Origin: Planctomycetes bacterium syqfu
GTDB taxonomy: Bacteria > Planctomycetota > Phycisphaerae > Phycisphaerales > Phycisphaeraceae
Reading direction: 5' to 3'
Assembly (NCBI GenBank): GCA_020974905.1
Contig: CP087563.1
Span: 6,820,001-6,884,000 of the forward strand
Length of the DNA: 64,000 nucleotides
The notes below the pieces were generated by a model. The model made no database searches. It saw only the letters and a list, made by a program, of their open reading frames with translations, and was not told the origin of the DNA. Both the position numbers and the translations under genes were made by a program. This document shows, piece after piece, positions 25,764-51,924 of the stretch; position 1 is the stretch's first letter; each line of letters starts with the position of its first letter.

Positions 25764-26253
25764 AAATCATCAAACCCACCATCATCCGAGACAAATCACT
25801 CGACGAAGCGCATGAACATGCCAAGGCCAACAACGAGCCGGTGTTCGTGCCCATGTCTGTTTTTGCCGATGATCGTGGCTGGTCGCATATGAACCTCATG
25901 CAAGGCGTGCTCGGCCCCGAAGGTCAGATCAATATCTCACAGGTCTATCCCGGCACCATCAAAGCCTGGCATCGCCACAAACTTCAAACAGACTTCTGGA
26001 TGTGCCCGGTGGGGCATATCAAGGTCGGTATTTTCCGTGATGATTTCTCGGCCTGGCAATTGGTCATCGGTGAAAAGAACCCGGGCATCATGATCATCCC
26101 GCCAACCCTTTGGCATGGCGTGGCCACCGTCGACCGGAGTCCGCGTTGATGATTTACTATGTCACCCACGCCTACAACATTGCCAATCCTGACGAGGAAC
26201 GCCGTACCTATGACAGTGTCGAAGGTTTTCACTGGGAGGTGGAACACAAATGA
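25760..26253 (+). pseudogene. rmlC: dTDP-4-dehydrorhamnose 3,5-epimerase-like cupin, frameshifted
   Basis: The first frame (25760-26149, 129 residues) holds the cupin core: FVPMSVFADDRGWSHMNLMQGVLG, ISQVYPGTIKAWHRHKLQTDFW and MIIPPTLWHGVATV. It then leaves the conserved path and stops at TGA 26147. In the next frame the natural C-terminus continues: PESALMIYYVTHAYN then NPDEERRTYDSVEGFHWEVE, with a TGA at 26251 that overlaps the rmlD ATG. A single base missing near 26131-26134, where GTC GA CCG GAG would read V-G-P-E if one base longer, joins the two parts. The product would epimerise C3 and C5 of dTDP-4-keto-6-deoxyglucose. An assembly error, a real lesion or two coupled polypeptides (ATG at 26149) are all possible. 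Confidence 0.8.
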
Positions 26254-27125
26254 GCGTTGACTTCCCGCAACCCATTTTGCTCATCGGTTCAGATGGCATG
26301 CTCGGGACGGCCTGGCGTACGGTCCTTGATGAGATGCAAGTCGATTACCGCTGCCCGAGTCTTGCTGAATTTGATTTGACCGATGAAGAAAGTATCAACC
26401 GTCAGGTTACCGATGAGATTCAGTTGGTCATCAACTGCGCGGCTTACACAGCCGTCGACAAAGCTGAAGAAGAGGAAGAACTCGCCACCGTGATTAATGG
26501 CGAAGGGGTTGGCAAGCTGGCGGATCGCTGCAAGCAGGTCGCCGCCAAGCTCGTGCATTACTCCACGGACTACGTCTTCCCTGGTGATGCTGATACGCCG
26601 TATTTACCCAGTGAAAAGCGTAATCCGTGTAACGCCTATGGTCGCAGTAAAGCCGTTGGCGAAGAACTCATCGAACAGTCGGGTTGCAATCATCTGGTGA
26701 TCCGAACCAGTTGGTTGTATGCACCCTGGGCCAACAACTTTGTTTTGACCATTGCCAGGCTTGCTGCTGAGCGTGATGAACTGTCGGTGGTGGATGATCA
26801 GTTTGGTCGTCCCACCAGTTCACAGCATTTGGCACAGGTTTCGGCGGATCTGATTTCTGCTGGTGCTTCTGGTTTTTACCATGTGACGGATGGGGGGCAG
26901 TGCAACTGGTTTGCGTTTGCTCAGCAGATTGTCAAACTCACCGGCGCTGCATGCACGGTCAAACCCTGTGATTCAACGCAATTCCCACGTCCGGCAGTGC
27001 GACCGGCATACAGTGTTCTGGACATCACGAGCACTGAAAAAATCGTTGGCGAATTATCCCATTGGAAAGACAACCTTGCTGCCGTCATTGCTCAGCATCA
27101 AAAGAAAGAGACGATTCCCTCATGA
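26250..27125 (+). CDS. rmlD: dTDP-4-dehydrorhamnose reductase
   Basis: 291 residues; an extended short-chain dehydrogenase that reduces dTDP-4-keto-L-rhamnose to dTDP-L-rhamnose with NAD(P)H. Visible motifs: LLIGSDGMLGTAW (nucleotide-binding Gly-rich loop), FDLTDEESI, INCAAYTAVDKAEEEEELA, the catalytic STDYVFPGD with YGRSKAVGEE (Tyr and Lys) and IRTSWLYAPWANNFV. Length and motif order match the family. It overlaps rmlC at its start and rmlB at its end by four bases each (ATGA), so the three are translationally coupled. Confidence 0.95.
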   Translation: MSVDFPQPILLIGSDGMLGTAWRTVLDEMQVDYRCPSLAEFDLTDEESINRQVTDEIQLVINCAAYTAVDKAEEEEELATVINGEGVGKLADRCKQVAAKLVHYSTDYVFPGDADTPYLPSEKRNPCNAYGRSKAVGEELIEQSGCNHLVIRTSWLYAPWANNFVLTIARLAAERDELSVVDDQFGRPTSSQHLAQVSADLISAGASGFYHVTDGGQCNWFAFAQQIVKLTGAACTVKPCDSTQFPRPAVRPAYSVLDITSTEKIVGELSHWKDNLAAVIAQHQKKETIPS

Positions 27126-28159
27126 GTATTCAATCCATTCTCGTTACGGGTGGCTGTGGTTTTATCGGTTCGAACTTCGTGCGTTTTGTGCTTGAACATC
27201 GCGATGGGATCAAGATCACCAATCTCGATTCGCTGACGTATTCGGGCAATCCTGAAAACCTGGCGGACATCCAGAACGATAGCCGTTACAGCTTTGTTCA
27301 TGGTGATATTCGTGATGAAGCTTTGGTTGCCAAGTTGGTTGCCGAGTGTGATGCCGTGGTTCACTTTGCAGCGGAAAGTCACGTGGACCGTTCGATCCTC
27401 GACTCCAAGCCGTTCATTGAATCCAACGTGTTGGGCACGCAGATTTTGCTTGATGCTGCACGCAAACAGTGGGGGACCGGGACTTCCGGGGGAGGTCGGT
27501 TCATTCATGTGAGCACCGATGAAGTCTATGGCGATTTACCATTAGACAAACCGGAGTTGCTGTTTACCGAGTCAACACCGCTTAACCCACATTCACCATA
27601 CTCGTCTTCCAAGGCAGCCAGTGACCTGTTGGTGATGGCTGCGCATCACACGTTTGGCTTGAATGTGAACATCACCCGTTGCTCCAACAACTTCGGGCCT
27701 TACCAGTTTCCTGAGAAGGTCATCCCGCTGTTTGTTACCAATCTGATTGAAGGCAAGAAGGTGCCGCTTTACGGTGATGGACGTAACGTTCGCGACTGGT
27801 TGCATGTTGATGATCACTGTGAAGCGATTCTCACCGTACTCGAAAAAGGCACCCCCGGTGAAGTCTATAACATTGGGGGCAATAACGAACGCTCCAATCT
27901 TGAACTGACACACATGATTTTAGAAGCGATGGGTAAAGGCAAGGACATGATCCAGCCGGTGACCGATCGCCTGGGACATGACCGTCGCTATGCCATTGAT
28001 CCGACCAAGATCAAAACGCAGTTGGGTTGGCAACCGACCCGCAGCGCCTTGTCGGAGGCATTGGAAGCCACGGTTAAATGGTATGTGGATAATGCCGGTT
28101 GGTGGCAGCGCGTCAAGAGTGGTGCGTACCGCGAGTACTATCAGAAGCAGTATGGTTGA
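27122..28159 (+). CDS. rmlB: dTDP-glucose 4,6-dehydratase
   Basis: 345 residues from ATG 27122, which overlaps the rmlD stop. It makes dTDP-4-keto-6-deoxyglucose from dTDP-glucose with bound NAD. The sequence has ILVTGGCGFIGSNFVRFVL, NLDSLTYSGN, VVHFAAESHVDRSI, the catalytic FIHVSTDEVYGDL with PYSSSKAASDLLV (Tyr and Lys), TRCSNNFGPYQFPEK and VYNIGGNNE: a complete RmlB. It is the last gene of the phosphoesterase-rmlC-rmlD-rmlB unit. Confidence 0.97.
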   Translation: MSIQSILVTGGCGFIGSNFVRFVLEHRDGIKITNLDSLTYSGNPENLADIQNDSRYSFVHGDIRDEALVAKLVAECDAVVHFAAESHVDRSILDSKPFIESNVLGTQILLDAARKQWGTGTSGGGRFIHVSTDEVYGDLPLDKPELLFTESTPLNPHSPYSSSKAASDLLVMAAHHTFGLNVNITRCSNNFGPYQFPEKVIPLFVTNLIEGKKVPLYGDGRNVRDWLHVDDHCEAILTVLEKGTPGEVYNIGGNNERSNLELTHMILEAMGKGKDMIQPVTDRLGHDRRYAIDPTKIKTQLGWQPTRSALSEALEATVKWYVDNAGWWQRVKSGAYREYYQKQYG

Positions 28160-28223
28160 GATCTAGGTTGCTTGATTGCGGTTGCGCCAAAGCATGCAAA
28201 GCAATCATCGATCACATTTCAAA

Positions 28224-28256
28224 TACCGTATCGCTCCTGCGGCACGGGTTGCCTTG
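28224..28256 (+). repeat. Single REP-like palindrome, distant copy
   Basis: ACCGTATCGCTCCTGCGG followed by CACGGGTTGCCTTG matches the conserved CGGGTTGCCTTG half and palindromic stem of the REP copies around the RAYT-like gene at 51304, about 23 kb away. It lies between rmlB and the FKBP gene. Confidence 0.65.
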
Positions 28257-35070: not shown

Positions 35071-35118
35071 CACGAGCTTTTTTGACGATTGGCTCGTTGG
35101 CGACCTTGGCCATCACGC

Positions 35119-36318
35119 ATGCTCTACAACATCATCAACATGCTCCGACCCTGGCTCGTGGAGAACGGTCTCTTCGGGTACTGTCGCGTGTGGACTTACA
35201 TTGAGTTCCGCGCGGTCGTCAGTGTGTTGATGGGATTCGGCTTTGTGCTGCTCATGGGTAAGCCCACGATCATGTGGCTCATCAAGCAGAAGATCGGTGA
35301 CAATCCCGAGTTTCACAATAAGTCGCTTAACGAACTGACCAAGAAAAAAGCACATACCCCGACGATGGGGGGGATCATCATCTGTGGTTCGATTTTCTTC
35401 ACCACGATGCTCCTTGCAGACCTTGAGAGTTTTTATGTGCGCATGGCTTTCATCTGTCTGATCTGGCTTGCGGGTGTCGGTTGTGCCGATGACTGGCTTA
35501 AACTTACCACAGCAAGACGCACCCCCGGATCACGAACTGGCCTGTATTCGTGGGAAAAATTGCTCTTCCAACTCGCGCTGGGCGTGATGTTGGGCATCTT
35601 CATTCACCATTATGGCAACACCAAGTGGGGCGATGTCGGACACAATGACATTTTGAGTATGTCCCGAAGTCTGACCTTGCCATTCATGAAAAGTTGGCAG
35701 TGGGATGGCAGTCAATGGATCCCCTCCGACACGCTGATCATCCTGGGGGCATGGACCTTTGTGATCTTCACGACCTTGTTTATTGCTGGAACCTCCAACG
35801 CGGTCAATCTCACCGACGGCATGGATGGCTTGGCCAGCGGGATCACCGGCATGATCGCGTTTGCGTTTATGATCCTGGCTTTGATTGCAGGCAGTGAAGT
35901 CTGGGCCAAGAATCTGCTGGTGCCTTACATCCCGTTGAGTAATGAATTGGCCATCGTCGCTGGTGCGATGTTCGGCGCGTGTCTGGGGTTCCTCTGGTTT
36001 AACGCACACCCGGCAGAGGTCTTCATGGGCGACACAGGCTCGCTGCCATTAGGCGGACTGCTGGCCTATATCGCGGTGGTGATCCGCCAGGAATTCCTGC
36101 TGCTGGTTGTTGGCGGTGTGGTGTACATGGAACTACTTAGCGTGGTCATGCAGGTCGGCTACTTCAAGTTCACCGGCGGTAAACGTATCTTCCGATGTGC
36201 ACCGATCCATCACCATTTCCACATGGGCGGCATCCCCGAAAACCGCGTCGTCATCCGCATGTGGCTGGCAACCGCAGCTCTGGCAGCCCTGGCAATCGCC
36301 ACCATCAAGCTGCGGTAA
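35119..36318 (+). CDS. mraY: Phospho-N-acetylmuramoyl-pentapeptide transferase
   Basis: 399 residues from ATG 35119 (a TTG-started frame opens at 35089). An inner-membrane enzyme with about ten helices that moves phospho-MurNAc-pentapeptide to undecaprenyl phosphate, giving lipid I. KKKAHTPTMGGIIICG, GCADDWLKL (catalytic Asp pair), NAVNLTDGMDGLASG, FLWFNAHPAEVFMGDTGSLPLGG and APIHHHFHMGGIPENRVVIRMW are the family hallmarks. It directly uses the MurF product, and it ends the mur unit. Confidence 0.97.
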   Translation: MLYNIINMLRPWLVENGLFGYCRVWTYIEFRAVVSVLMGFGFVLLMGKPTIMWLIKQKIGDNPEFHNKSLNELTKKKAHTPTMGGIIICGSIFFTTMLLADLESFYVRMAFICLIWLAGVGCADDWLKLTTARRTPGSRTGLYSWEKLLFQLALGVMLGIFIHHYGNTKWGDVGHNDILSMSRSLTLPFMKSWQWDGSQWIPSDTLIILGAWTFVIFTTLFIAGTSNAVNLTDGMDGLASGITGMIAFAFMILALIAGSEVWAKNLLVPYIPLSNELAIVAGAMFGACLGFLWFNAHPAEVFMGDTGSLPLGGLLAYIAVVIRQEFLLLVVGGVVYMELLSVVMQVGYFKFTGGKRIFRCAPIHHHFHMGGIPENRVVIRMWLATAALAALAIATIKLR

Positions 36319-36352
36319 ACCAACCTTCAAATTCAAAGCCGTGTCGCTCCTG

Positions 36353-36581
36353 CCAACCTATTCAATCTTTGCAGTAAGTAGTCTCTTGTTATTGATTTTT
36401 TTGTGTGCGGCCACAATGCAATGACTGCATCGTCACTCCCGCGCAGGCGGGAGTCCAGTGAGGCCTGCAAGCGTCAACAGAATGTCACTGGATTCCCGCC
36501 TGCGCGGGAATGACGGACGTAAGTCATCACAACAACAGTCATCTCAAAATAAGCACTTGCAGCGAAATTTGAATAGGTTGG
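36353..36581. mobile_element. 229-bp MITE-like element with terminal inverted repeats
   Basis: The termini are CCAACCTATTCAA (36353-36365) and its exact reverse complement (36569-36581); the match continues with gaps through CTTTGCAGTAAGT against TTTCGCTGCAAGT. No coding capacity. The centre (36431-36515) is an 85-bp palindromic core also found in the 157-bp elements at 42015 and 45500. It fills most of the 311-bp gap between mraY and the next gene. Confidence 0.7.
36431..36515. repeat. 85-bp palindromic core, copy A
   Basis: The ends are CGTCACTCCCGCGCAGGCGG and its near complement CCGCCTGCGCGGGAATGACG, with TCCAGTG/CACTGGA inside. The reverse complement of copy B (42056-42140) differs from it at only a few central bases; copy C is at 45531-45615. 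All three copies are 85 bp. Confidence 0.9.
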
Positions 36582-36629
36582 CTCCCGCGGCACGGGTTGC
36601 CTTATTTCCAATATGATGAATGATTCACC

Positions 36630-38519
36630 TCACGCCGCCACCCCCGGAATCACCACCAACTGCCCGCCATTCACCGTGAGATTGGCAAGCGATTCCACCT
36701 GTTGTGATTGACCGTTGGCCCCCTGGATGTGACAACGATAAATCCGTGATTCACCTGTGAGTGTGCTGTCATAATTCACAGCGGTGTCCGTGGGGTTGTA
36801 AATCAGCATGGTCGATGTTTCATTGCTGGTGACTACTTTAAGAATGAGCAAACTCTCATGTTCGATCCGCGTCATCTGGACCGGCGATTCACCATCAGGC
36901 CATGCGGTTAAGCCATAACCCAGAGGCGTGTCGGCAGGGATACTCGTGGGATTGTTGTCTGAGAGATGGACCCACAGTTCTTTCTCGTTGAAGGGGGTGA
37001 TTTGCGTGACATGGTTGCCAACGACTTGCAAATTGAGTTTACCTGCGGTGATGCGGTTATTTGCCGAGATGACTGGTTGATCACCCAGCGAGACATAGCC
37101 ACGCGGGACAGCGTTGATCGCGGTGTCGTCTTTCCAACTGATCATCCAACCTGCAATGCCTTTGCCGGTCGCAAACCAGAGTTGGGCGTTGTGATGTCCC
37201 TTGGCAGGCGGCGCACCAGCATTGCCATAGTAGGGCATCCGCGGTTCAAACGTGATCGCGCTAGCAATCCAGTTATCACCGACAATGCTGCGATGCTCAT
37301 GAACCTGTTCAGCGGGGAGAATCATATACGCACCATTGGGGCGCTTATAGGGCTTGTCGTCATTGTCCGGTGAGACCACATCAATGGCAGCGGTTTGCAG
37401 ATACCCATCGAACTTGTAGCGATCAGTTGATCGGACGATGGAAGCGCCGATACCAGTGTCCACGTAGGCTTTGCCGGGCATGACGACCTGGAAGCCGTCG
37501 TGTCGTAGATGCGGTCCGCCGTAGTTGGGATTGTACTTGATCAGGTCGCTACTCAATGTTCCAACGGGGATGGTGCCGTCCCAGAAGTACATCGCGATGT
37601 AGCTGAAATAGTAGGGTTGTTGGGAGAGTAAACGATATTCAGCCAACGCTCGGGCGACAGAATCACGCGCCATGCCTGCAGCGATTTCAATACCATGCAT
37701 CGGGCCGCCGATTTCCCAGCGGTGTTTCCACCACGGTGTTGACGCGCCATCCCACATGCCGTTGGCCTGGACATCATGGGCAAAGCTTGCCATGGACTTG
37801 AGACTTTGTGCGACCAACGGATCTTTGGTGAGCATGTAGTAGCGACCGAGGAACGTGACTTCAAAACCGAAGTACAGCGGTGTCGGCCCGGACTGTCGCA
37901 TGTAGTGAAACGCACCGCCTGGCGTCTGCATGCGTCGGGCACGGACAACGAGTTTGGCTGCGAGGTCCGCATAGCGCGATTGATCATAAAGGATCGAAGC
38001 GACCTGCAAAACGACCGCGGATTGATGCAGCGTGTTGGACGCGACCGACTCCCAGTATTCCCCGGTTTCGTTCATGTCATGGTTCTGTTCAACGAATGGC
38101 TGAAGATCACTTAACCATTTGTTGTATTGGGTGACCGGTGCTGAACCGTCTTTTTTCCAGAGGTAAATCGTCTCCAGCGATTCGGTCAACGCCCAGAGAT
38201 TAAGCTTCTGTTCCAGCTCCTTGGCAACGATCGCATCTGTCGCTGCCAACGCTTTTGTTTTGAGATTGGCATCACCTTTACGCGAACTCTCCGGCGCGGT
38301 GTAGCCCCATGTGAGCCAGAAGGCGCTGTTGCTTTCAAGACCACGCGTGACGTTAAGCTCAGCCAGTTGCACATACGGATTCTCTGCTGGCTGAATCAAA
38401 TCCGGGTTGCCACACCAACTGTCCCCGCCTCGAAAACACTGGGCGGACACTGTTGCGGTGAAGCTGCCAAGCAGGCAAACGGGTAGGATCAACAGACTCA
38501 AAATCAAACGTCGTTTCAC
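36630..38519 (-). CDS. Secreted protein, polysaccharide-lyase-like (unassigned)
   Basis: 629 residues from GTG 38519, which has GGAG seven bases upstream and gives a clean signal peptide (MKRRLILSLLILPVCLLGSF, cleavage near VSA/Q); a longer frame opens at 38588. The first half is mostly helical, with Trp/Tyr-rich stretches such as FHYMRQSGPTPLYFGFEVTF and GGPMHGIEIAAGMARDS. The second half is beta-rich (YMILPAEQVHEHRSIVGDNW, WFATGKGIAGWMISWKDDT). An alpha/alpha-toroid plus beta-sandwich, as in several polysaccharide lyase families, would fit, but I cannot name a family or catalytic residues. It is in a module with a prepilin and a LacI regulator. Confidence 0.8.
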   Translation of the reverse strand: MKRRLILSLLILPVCLLGSFTATVSAQCFRGGDSWCGNPDLIQPAENPYVQLAELNVTRGLESNSAFWLTWGYTAPESSRKGDANLKTKALAATDAIVAKELEQKLNLWALTESLETIYLWKKDGSAPVTQYNKWLSDLQPFVEQNHDMNETGEYWESVASNTLHQSAVVLQVASILYDQSRYADLAAKLVVRARRMQTPGGAFHYMRQSGPTPLYFGFEVTFLGRYYMLTKDPLVAQSLKSMASFAHDVQANGMWDGASTPWWKHRWEIGGPMHGIEIAAGMARDSVARALAEYRLLSQQPYYFSYIAMYFWDGTIPVGTLSSDLIKYNPNYGGPHLRHDGFQVVMPGKAYVDTGIGASIVRSTDRYKFDGYLQTAAIDVVSPDNDDKPYKRPNGAYMILPAEQVHEHRSIVGDNWIASAITFEPRMPYYGNAGAPPAKGHHNAQLWFATGKGIAGWMISWKDDTAINAVPRGYVSLGDQPVISANNRITAGKLNLQVVGNHVTQITPFNEKELWVHLSDNNPTSIPADTPLGYGLTAWPDGESPVQMTRIEHESLLILKVVTSNETSTMLIYNPTDTAVNYDSTLTGESRIYRCHIQGANGQSQQVESLANLTVNGGQLVVIPGVAA

Positions 38520-38596
38520 AATCAATCTCCATGCATTGTGCTTGGAGCGCACAATGATTTTAGGGCAGGAAAATAAGGGGTAAATCAATCAAGCCA

Positions 38597-40622: not shown

Positions 40623-42012
40623 TACTACAGTTGCGCATCTACAATTGCCGATATCATCAGTCGTTTGATATGACTGGAGGGATGGGCATGGATGCTGCAA
40701 CGGTGAGTCATTGGGCCAATGACTTTTCAGAGATGTGGGAGCAGATCGGCGATTGTTTTGCTCGCAAGGATTTGCGATTTCGGGCGGCGACTTATGTGCA
40801 GGGCCTGCTCGGTGATGTTCATCGCAAGAACAGTTGGCAACTGGCTGAACAAGTCGGACTTCAAACGCCCCACGCTTTTCAACGGTTGTTGGGTCGGGCA
40901 TCGTGGGATGCTCATCAACTGCGCGACCAGGTGCGAAGCTATGCAGTGGATCATTTACTTGGGGATGCGGCCGGCGGGGTGTTGATCGTCGATGAGACGG
41001 GCTTTCTGAAAAAGGGCGACAAGTCGGTTGGCGTGCAACGTCAGTACTCGGGCACGGCGGGTCGAATTGAGAATTGCCAGGTGGGTGTGTTTCTGGCGAT
41101 GGCTTCGTCGCGTGGTCGGGCGTTGATTGATCGGGCGTTGTACCTGCCCAAGGATTGGTGCGAGGATCAGGCACGTCGATCCGAAGCAGGCGTTCCCCCG
41201 GAAGTGAAGTTCGCCACCAAGCCTCAACTGGCGGTGACGATGTTGCGTCGAGCCGCTGGATGCGGGCCTTGAACCGCGTTGGGTATTGGCGGATGAAGTG
41301 TACGGTTCAGACAGTAAAACAAGGCGTTTTTGGAAGATCATGGTCAAGCGTATGTCATGGCGGTGACCTCGCAACAGCAGCTGTGGGTGAACTTCCAACG
41401 GCAACGTGTCGATGCGATCATTGATGATGTGCCTGACGAGCAATGGCAGACGCACAGCATCGGCGAAGGTGCCAAGGGGTCGCGTGTGTATCAATGGGCC
41501 GGCGGCAAGTTCGGCGATCCGATCGAACACGAGCGCGGTGATCTGCAAAACTGGTTACTTGTTCGACGCAATGTGGAGCAACCGACTCAACGAGCTTACT
41601 ATTTTTGTGCTGCTCCGTTGGACGCGACGTTGCAGGACTTGGCGATGGCCGCCGGCCAGCGTTGGGCGATTGAAACATGCTTCCAGACGGCCAAGCAGGA
41701 AGTCGGACTCGATGCGTATGAAGTGCGGCTCGTGGACGGGTTGGCATCGCCATGTCACGTTGTCGATGTTGGCGTTGGCGTTCTTGAGCGTCGTGCGATC
41801 CCAAGTGCACCAGCCCACGGAAAAAGGGGCGTTGATCTGGTCCCGGTAACCGAGCCGGAGATTCGGCGGTTGATGCTGGCAATCGTCTGGCCCCGGTTCA
41901 ACGACGTAGAACGCGCGTTAGCCTGGTCGGCTTGGCGAAGACACCACCAAGCCGTCGCAAAGTATTACCACTACAGGGCGAGAGAACCAGATCATAATGC
42001 GCAACTGTAGTA
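40623..42012 (+). mobile_element. IS701-family-like insertion sequence
   Basis: 1,390 bp. The terminal inverted repeats TACTACAGTTGCGCAT (40623-40638) and its exact complement (41997-42012) are flanked on both sides by CTAG, the kind of 4-bp YTAR target duplication expected for IS701 elements. The only gene is a transposase of IS701 type, broken by frameshifts. It inserted exactly at the left end of the 157-bp element at 42015. Confidence 0.88.
40688..42010 (+). pseudogene. IS701-type DDE transposase, frameshifted
   Basis: GGAGGG six bases before ATG 40688 gives the start. Residues in the first frame include VDETGFLKKGDKSVGVQRQYSGTAGRIENCQVGVFLAMAS, with the first catalytic Asp; the frame stops at 41272. 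The expected continuation LDAGLEPRWVLADEVYGSDSKTRRF, with the second Asp, is in another frame from 41256, apparently after one extra G near 41255. The first frame resumes near 41320 (one T short), carrying ETCFQTAKQEVGLD with the Glu. A stretch near 41741-41840 (WHRHVTLSMLALAFLSVVRS) is again in the other frame, before PVTEPEIRRLM in the first. Four shifts mean no intact transposase unless the sequence has errors. Confidence 0.85.
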
Positions 42013-42014
42013 CT

Positions 42015-42171
42015 AGAGCACATCAAATAATTAATCTCCATGCCATCTCTCATTTCGTCATTCCCGCGCAGGCGGGAATCCAGTGGCATTCTGTTGACGC
42101 TTGCAGATGTCACTGGACTCCCGCCTGCGCGGGAGTGACGAAAAGTGGAGATTATTTATTTGAATTGCTCT
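42015..42171. mobile_element. 157-bp MITE, copy B
   Basis: The ends AGAGCACATCAAATAATTAA and the complement of TTATTTATTTGAATTGCTCT form imperfect terminal inverted repeats about 24 bp long around the 85-bp core (42056-42140). A second element of exactly 157 bp is at 45500-45656. Its left end coincides with the CTAG target site of the adjacent insertion sequence. Confidence 0.8.
42056..42140. repeat. 85-bp palindromic core, copy B (inverted)
   Basis: CGTCATTCCCGCGCAGGCGG at the left end and CCGCCTGCGCGGGAGTGACG at the right. Its reverse complement is nearly identical to copy A at 36431, including the asymmetric centre TGCAAGCGTCAACAGAATG. Confidence 0.9.
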
Positions 42172-42216
42172 CAATGCGGGTGAATGACATGCTGTTGTCG
42201 TAGACGTTATGCGCAT

Positions 42217-45499: not shown

Positions 45500-45656
45500 A
45501 GAGCAGTTCAAATCATTAATCTGCACCTTCCGTCACTCCCGCGCACGCAGGAGTCCAGTGATATATGCAGGCGTACACAGAATGCCACTGGATTCCCGCC
45601 TGCGCGGGAATGACGAAGCTTATCGCCGTATGGAAATTACTTAGTTGTATCGCTCT
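45500..45656. mobile_element. 157-bp MITE, copy C
   Basis: The left end AGAGCAGTTCAAATCATTAA matches copy B (42015) and the right end is the diverged complement (GTATCGCTCT). The 85-bp core is at 45531-45615. The length is identical to copy B. Confidence 0.78.
45531..45615. repeat. 85-bp palindromic core, copy C
   Basis: CGTCACTCCCGCGCACGCAG at the left end and CCGCCTGCGCGGGAATGACG at the right, in the same orientation as copy A. The centre is more diverged. Confidence 0.88.
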
Positions 45657-51174: not shown

Positions 51175-51281
51175 AAAGCCGTGACTCTCCTGAGTCACGG
51201 GTTGCCTTGGCGTTGGTGGTGTTCTTGATATTCGTACTCGATTTAGCAAGGCAACCCGTGGCCCGGGAGGACCACGGCTTT
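51175..51281. repeat. Inverted pair of REP-like palindromes (3' side of RAYT-like gene)
   Basis: The first copy (51175-51209) is AAAGCCGTGACTCTCCTG then AGTCACGGGTTGCCTTG. The second copy (51247-51281), in reverse orientation, ends in CGGGTTGCCTTG when complemented. Each is a stem of about 9 bp ending in the shared CGGGTTGCC. They lie just downstream of the gene at 51304. Confidence 0.82.
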
Positions 51282-51830: not shown

Positions 51831-51924
51831 CAGGCGACCCGTGACCTGGGAAGGTCACGGCTTTTAAAATTGATGAATGATCGCAACACAAAGCCGTGAC
51901 TCTCCTGAGTCACGGGTTGCCTTG
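51831..51924. repeat. Inverted pair of REP-like palindromes (5' side of RAYT-like gene)
   Basis: The copy at 51831-51864 is in reverse orientation (GACCCGTGACCTGGGAAGG then TCACGGC) and the copy at 51890-51924 is forward. The forward copy is identical over 35 bases to the one at 51175. Together with 51175-51281 they bracket the transposase-like gene. Confidence 0.82.

Follow-up and report, generated by a model that had tools for sequence, protein, structure and literature searches.

Insertion sequences (ISs) of the IS3, IS110, and IS4 families are described with all their copies in REPs (PMC1525189). ISRm22 of Sinorhizobium meliloti (IS4 family) has 10 of its 10 tabulated copies in REPs, with insertion at the axis of palindromy; its direct repeats are 6 bp long (perfect in six of the nine copies discussed), and its transposase is assigned there to Transposase_11 (PMC1525189). 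The IS3-family elements ISPsy8, IS1397, and ISKpn1 likewise insert into REPs, ISPsy8 at the symmetry axis of the hairpin with a 3-bp repeat, and ISPpu9, ISPpu10, ISPa11, ISRm19, and IS621 (IS110 family) are likewise REP-specific, with 2-bp repeats for ISPpu9 and ISPpu10 and none for ISPa11 (PMC1525189). REPs of the CGTC type are reported without a dedicated transposase (PMC3733652).

The element described here can be compared with these systems through their published descriptions. Like ISRm22, it has all its copies with a readable end in REPs, direct repeats, and insertion at the axis of palindromy; unlike it, it is not a full IS with its own transposase, and its duplication is 8 bp instead of 6 bp (PMC1525189). 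The IS3-family elements differ in family and in being autonomous, and those of the IS110 family in the use of IS110 enzymes (PMC1525189). REP-targeting is known for full insertion sequences, of which the present case is a miniature and nested variant. A literature search (mostly of titles and abstract openings) did not turn up a MITE that targets REPs and itself contains a REP dimer.

Very probably, the locus records the insertion of a non-autonomous element (MITE) moved by a DDE transposase supplied in trans; the point of insertion would be the centre of a REP hairpin, and the event would have left an 8-bp direct duplication centred on the REP symmetry axis. Within this reading, sequence comparison establishes the ends and boundaries of the element and the single REP position that it occupies in either orientation; it also establishes that two loci are filled in one genome and empty in another.

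The interrupted REP and the ends of the element

The window is the whole stretch of 64,000 nucleotides that was analysed, taken from the genome G000; G001 is a genome of the same genus, and four genomes of the genus (G000–G003) were searched. In the window, a REP (AAAGCCGTGTC-GCTCCTGC-GGCACGGGTTGCCTT) is split at 36335–36603, and its parts (36335–36353 and 36581–36603) flank the element. The features are:

35089–36318, + strand: mraY-like gene that stops shortly before the REP (Pfam PF00953, PF10555)
36335–36345, + strand: left part of the interrupted REP, AAAGCCGTGTC (from the sequence; intact REPs have these bases before the loop)
36346–36353, + strand: putative left copy of the 8-bp target duplication, GCTCCTGC (from the junction table; the commonest 8-mer at this place in intact REPs)
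36354–36580, + strand: MITE-like element of 227 bp with CAACCTATTCAA ends and imperfect terminal inverted repeats of 26 bp (from the G001 copies L130 and L132 and the terminal-repeat pattern)
36431–36515, + strand: internal CGTC-1-type head-to-head REP dimer, arms 36431–36461 and 36485–36515 (inverted repeat; further genome copies; definition of PMC3733652)
36581–36588, + strand: putative right copy of the 8-bp target duplication, GCTCCCGC, one mismatch (from the junction table)
36589–36603, + strand: right part of the interrupted REP, GGCACGGGTTGCCTT (from the sequence and the REP pattern)
36630–38588, − strand: convergent open reading frame right of the REP, no Pfam match
28223–28256, + strand: intact REP (at 28224), an empty site whose G001 ortholog is filled (ends of contigs C107 and C157)

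With up to three mismatches, the REP pattern has four matches in the window (shuffle mean 0.00). The termini of the element, CCAACCTATTCAA and TTGAATAGGTTGG, form perfect inverted ends of 12–13 bases within the imperfect 26-base repeats. Without mismatches, the 13-mer CCAACCTATTCAA is present at only two sites in the 7.38-Mb genome, both of them ends of the element; with up to two mismatches, the whole genome has no excess over a control pattern (112 + 111 vs. 119 + 110). In the G001 copies L130 and L132, which are inverted with respect to their REP, the alignment covers 36354–36580 of the window and then stops, so that the element is 227 bp long and begins with CAACC; with L129 (G001) the alignment is two bases longer, to 36582. 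A first-pass annotation of the window had placed a short element with inverted termini within a REP and read target bases as repeated on either side of it. The sequence bears this out, and the insertion stands; its length of 229 bp gives way to the 227 bp of the two G001 copies.

The element has the traits of a MITE: it is short, has terminal inverted repeats, lacks a transposase gene (only two ORFs of at least 20 aa, of 36 and 20 aa, lie wholly inside it), and is dispersed, with eight loci in G001 and two in G000 that have a readable end. Those of G001 are C107 + C157 (one locus), C23, C99, C127, C243, C128, C233, and C98, and in all eight a REP half is present at the identical REP position, in some forward and in others reversed. 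Those of G000 are the window copy and a copy at 3872863 (right arm lost), both at that same position. The G001 pieces C2, C52, and C239, without readable ends, are left out of the count, and in the G000 partial copies L003, L004, and L005 no end could be read by eye. In G001, one search scored 12 of 324 candidates; a search there with the left arm (12 of 12 candidates scored) and with the end pattern gave no further locus. The arms alone, searched in G000, returned the window copy and only weak further matches. A partial copy is common to an orthologous place in the two genomes (L003, G000:1952606, and L140, G001:C52; 92.6% over 1.5 kb), and the element family therefore seems older than the split of the two species.

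In type 1 REP-targeting ISs, as defined by Tobes and Pareja (PMC1525189), every copy occupies the same REP position, as do 10 of the 10 readable loci in G000 and G001 together; the transposase of its own that belongs to that definition is lacking, with no ORF longer than 36 aa wholly inside the 227 bp. A single non-autonomous element is found at one point of one REP family, in either orientation, and so appears to target REP hairpins. Tolerance instead of targeting would mean that insertions survive only in REPs between genes, and the window REP does lie between convergent genes. Survival alone, however, would allow other intergenic positions, and with all 10 readable loci at the same point of a REP of ∼34 bp, tolerance is scarcely credible as the explanation.

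The two flanks of the element in the window, GCTCCTGC (36346–36353) and GCTCCCGC (36581–36588), are identical at seven of eight bases, and in G001:C128 GCGGGAGT is found on both sides. The mismatch falls on the base that varies among intact REPs (30 loci, 32 regex matches, 18 of them with GCTCCTGC and 7 with GCTCCCGC). Over eight bases, the junctions agree at 7 in the window, 8 in C128, 7 in C243, and 5 in C23; in C107 + C157, allowing for one missing G raises the agreement from 1 to 8. In C99, they agree at two of eight, and the right junction is not REP-like. Only one junction is readable at three G001 loci. Mostly, then, the duplications track the local REP variant; as the target-site duplication expected of a MITE, they are clear in the window (7/8) and in C128 (8/8), weaker in C23, and absent in C99.

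From these junctions, the duplication is best read as 8 bp centred on the symmetry axis of the REP. The first-pass annotation was right about a target duplication, and its length of 6 bp is replaced by this reading; copies without a duplication, which it named as evidence against itself, amount to one (C99, with two of eight bases REP-like at the right junction), beside the three G001 loci with a single readable junction. A length of 6 bp was rejected on the base left of CAACC: at five of five loci (one of them after one missing G is allowed) it is the REP's own next base, C or T, and therefore looks like duplicated target and not like element. The first base of the eight agrees at only three of five loci (it disagrees at C243 and C23, and in one of the three it is a G common to the element end), so that the duplication may be 7 bp instead of 8. 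Equating the duplication with the hairpin loop was also rejected: with RNA parameters, the consensus REP folds into a 9-bp stem with a TCCT loop, and the 8 bp are therefore the loop plus two pairs on each side. Folded as DNA, the intact REP at 28224 gives a weak, shorter stem (z −1.62).

Empty and filled sites

The intact REP at 28224 has a filled ortholog in G001. Contig C107 follows the window over 26018–28163 (91.0% identity) and then enters REP and element, and C157 follows it over 30348–28233 (82.5%) and reaches the element from the opposite direction. Neither contig extends through the element, and their join rests on synteny. Contig C98 is collinear with G000:393.0–398.5 kb (90.1%), where the G000 REP is uninterrupted and degenerate; the left REP half of the C98 locus lies past the end of that contig. 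Two loci are thus filled in G001 and empty in G000, in a comparison that covers two of the eight G001 loci, the other six having no ortholog among the G000 loci fetched. At the 36335 locus, neither G001 nor G003 has the element. Between the same genes, a REP cannot be recognised in G003, where 16 of 34 bases agree and 658 of 1000 shuffles do at least as well; in G001, a decayed remnant of one is the most that may be present (19 of 34 bases, reached by 37 of 1000 shuffles).

For the element family, the aligned sites establish that the REP came first and the element second. The same order had been proposed from the window sequence, and the interrupted G001 ortholog of the 28224 REP and the empty C98 site support it; at 36335 itself, we infer the order from the family.

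REP and element could also be one composite unit copied whole, for instance by a REP transposase, with the apparent duplication a part of the unit. Such a unit would account for the interrupted arrangement in 8/8 readable loci of G001 and 2/2 of G000, and for the window locus, where G001 and G003 have neither the element nor a clear REP. The first-pass annotation had named the recurrence of this arrangement in many REPs as the sign of a single unit, and the recurrence is literally there; both orientations relative to the REP, duplications that mostly follow the local variant, and the two empty sites nevertheless point to target choice and not to a single unit. The copies in opposite orientation (L130, L132) moreover lose DNA identity at the ends of the element, and the uninterrupted REPs of G000 at the two loci filled in G001 largely refute a composite unit, which we regard as very improbable.

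The filled state could, on the other hand, be ancestral, with precise loss in G000 through the direct repeats of the element. Short direct repeats can recombine and so restore a REP, and the evidence at each of the two loci comes from two genomes only. Yet two exact losses would be needed. Moreover, 7 of the 12 G001 loci examined carry a derived variant of the internal dimer, CTTCCGGGGG (reversed in one of them), against none of 30 dimer copies in G000, a distribution that suggests spread within the G001 lineage. Ancestral filling followed by loss is accordingly very unlikely, and insertion into a pre-existing REP is the reading kept below.

The REP dimer inside the element

The segment 36431–36515, which the first-pass annotation does not mention, belongs to an abundant palindromic dimer family. 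Searched in G000, the whole element gave at least 78 matches (both strands; 40 of 325 candidates scored), mostly to the dimer part. The marks of CGTC-1 REP dimers (a CGTC tag, an 8-bp stem, a 4-nt loop, a CCA tail, and a head-to-head arrangement) are found in it: the right half fits as CGTC ATTCCCGC GCAG GCGGGAAT CCA, and in the left half the stem starts with AC instead of AT. The variant CTTCCGGGGG occurs at the G001 loci L129, L131, L132, L133, L134, L137, and L136; in L136, its reverse complement is in the left half, as if the dimer were inverted.

We read the dimer as a passenger of the element. The same dimer is also found at the centre of a second, distinct miniature element, whose ends are close to TAGAGCAATTCAAATAATTAATCTCCA. 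At a score of at least 18/27, ends of this type are present on both sides of 8 of 29 copies and on one side of 4 of 29 (control stretches reach at most 17), counts that lean upward since some of the scored copies had served to draw up the consensus. In the window, 41990–42200 (L007) is a miniature element with ends near TAGAGCACATCAAATAATTAATCTCCA, the shell of those 8 of 29 copies, and with the same CGTC-type dimer at 42055–42141, and 45531–45616 is a more diverged dimer copy, 78%–83% identical to G001 copies over 65–91 bases.

The CGTC-1 dimers of H. neapolitanus sit inside 41-bp palindromes and resemble the present case as a CGTC dimer within another palindrome; unlike here, they are not known from that account as the core of a REP-targeting mobile element (PMC3733652). 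In the present genome, CGTC REPs lie at the centre of two miniature elements whose ends are unrelated, which offers a concrete way for these REPs to spread.

The candidate transposase and the insertion sites of its relatives

A full-length IS with the same termini, which the earlier annotation suggested seeking, was not found intact in G000–G003 (end pattern, up to three mismatches): the pattern returns only the ends of the copies described above, and the relatives in G000, L039 and L190, are decayed. Matching ends were also absent when 16 DDE_Tnp_1 loci of G000, G001, and G003 were scanned in a simple way. The link to a transposase passes through L039 (G000:4780292), which has ends similar to those of the element and no dimer. 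Its left end is 84% identical to G000:2413714–2413775, and this segment adjoins a DDE_Tnp_1 match at 2413815–2414243 (162 aa tested, 23.8 bits, cut-off 23). From this we infer an enzyme of the DDE_Tnp_1 kind, akin to the decayed fragment at G000:2413.8–2414.3 kb; as no intact IS with these ends was found in G000–G003, the link runs through decayed intermediates. The Transposase_11 family, to which the ISRm22 enzyme is assigned, is presumably the one later named DDE_Tnp_1.

The L190 fragment has no match in the genome contigs or plasmids searched, nor to the NCBIfam IS5, IS982, IS1182, IS4, or IS701 models; by eye, the left flank of its IS end resembles a REP half. Of 400 genomes of the order, 29 contain matches to the G000 DDE_Tnp_1 fragment, G000 and G052 among them; the relatives are 34%–43% identical to it. 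Both relatives tested remain below the curated NCBIfam cut-offs (L192, best 65.8 vs. 130 for IS982; L198, 28.3 vs. 270 for IS1182). For L192, 831 plasmid records match, all below 60% identity, three of them from Sinorhizobium; the 25 matches listed, which do not include these three, are at 22%–27% and are named IS982 or unnamed. L198 has no match in plasmids, only G052's own copies in genome contigs, and none among solved structures at E up to 1. The longest frame of L194 seems not to be its transposase.

Among the 29 relative loci (L192–L220), boundaries could be set for 11 by an end motif or an inverted repeat, the other 18 being left out of the hairpin test; with extra copies, 17 insertions were scored. 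A flank stem score of at least 8 is reached by 11 of the 17, whereas 5,000 random splits reach it in 1.4% of cases; in 9 of the 11, the stem is symmetric about the junction. The mismatched-flank control is not clean (mean 5.66, maximum 40), probably owing to flanking repeats common to some copies. A strong flank stem is missing in six (L192, L195, L205, L206, L207, and L226), and L207 has neither stem nor duplication. In G052, GAATAC is found on both sides in three of four copies, with one mismatch in the fourth; in G091, the same four bases (TCGC or GCGA) are on both sides in three of the four copies examined (nine matches in total).

These insertion sites of distant relatives suggest that the transposase would recognise the REP palindrome. 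A broader proposal is tentative, and we hold it rather doubtful: a Planctomycetota DDE_Tnp_1 subfamily might recognise the geometry of a hairpin or cruciform and not its sequence, related enzymes inserting into the dyad centres of palindromes whose sequences are unrelated (both REPs and terminator-like hairpins) and leaving axis-centred duplications of 4 to 8 bp, and their MITEs, carrying CGTC-type REPs, would be one route of spread for a repeat without a dedicated transposase. The element keeps to a single REP family, and many distant relatives of the candidate transposase are found at the centres of unrelated palindromes; recognition of sequence and of structure can therefore be separated by experiment.

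Other REPs show arrangements of their own. Identical REP variants (CTCTCCTGAGTCACGGGTTGCCTT) occur in the window at 51185–51208 and 51900–51923, 715 bp apart. Among L061–L090, several REPs have, by eye, a second, inverted hairpin type some tens of bases away, like paired REPs; the second hairpin of L063, for example, is CAACCCGTAACCCAGGAGGGT.
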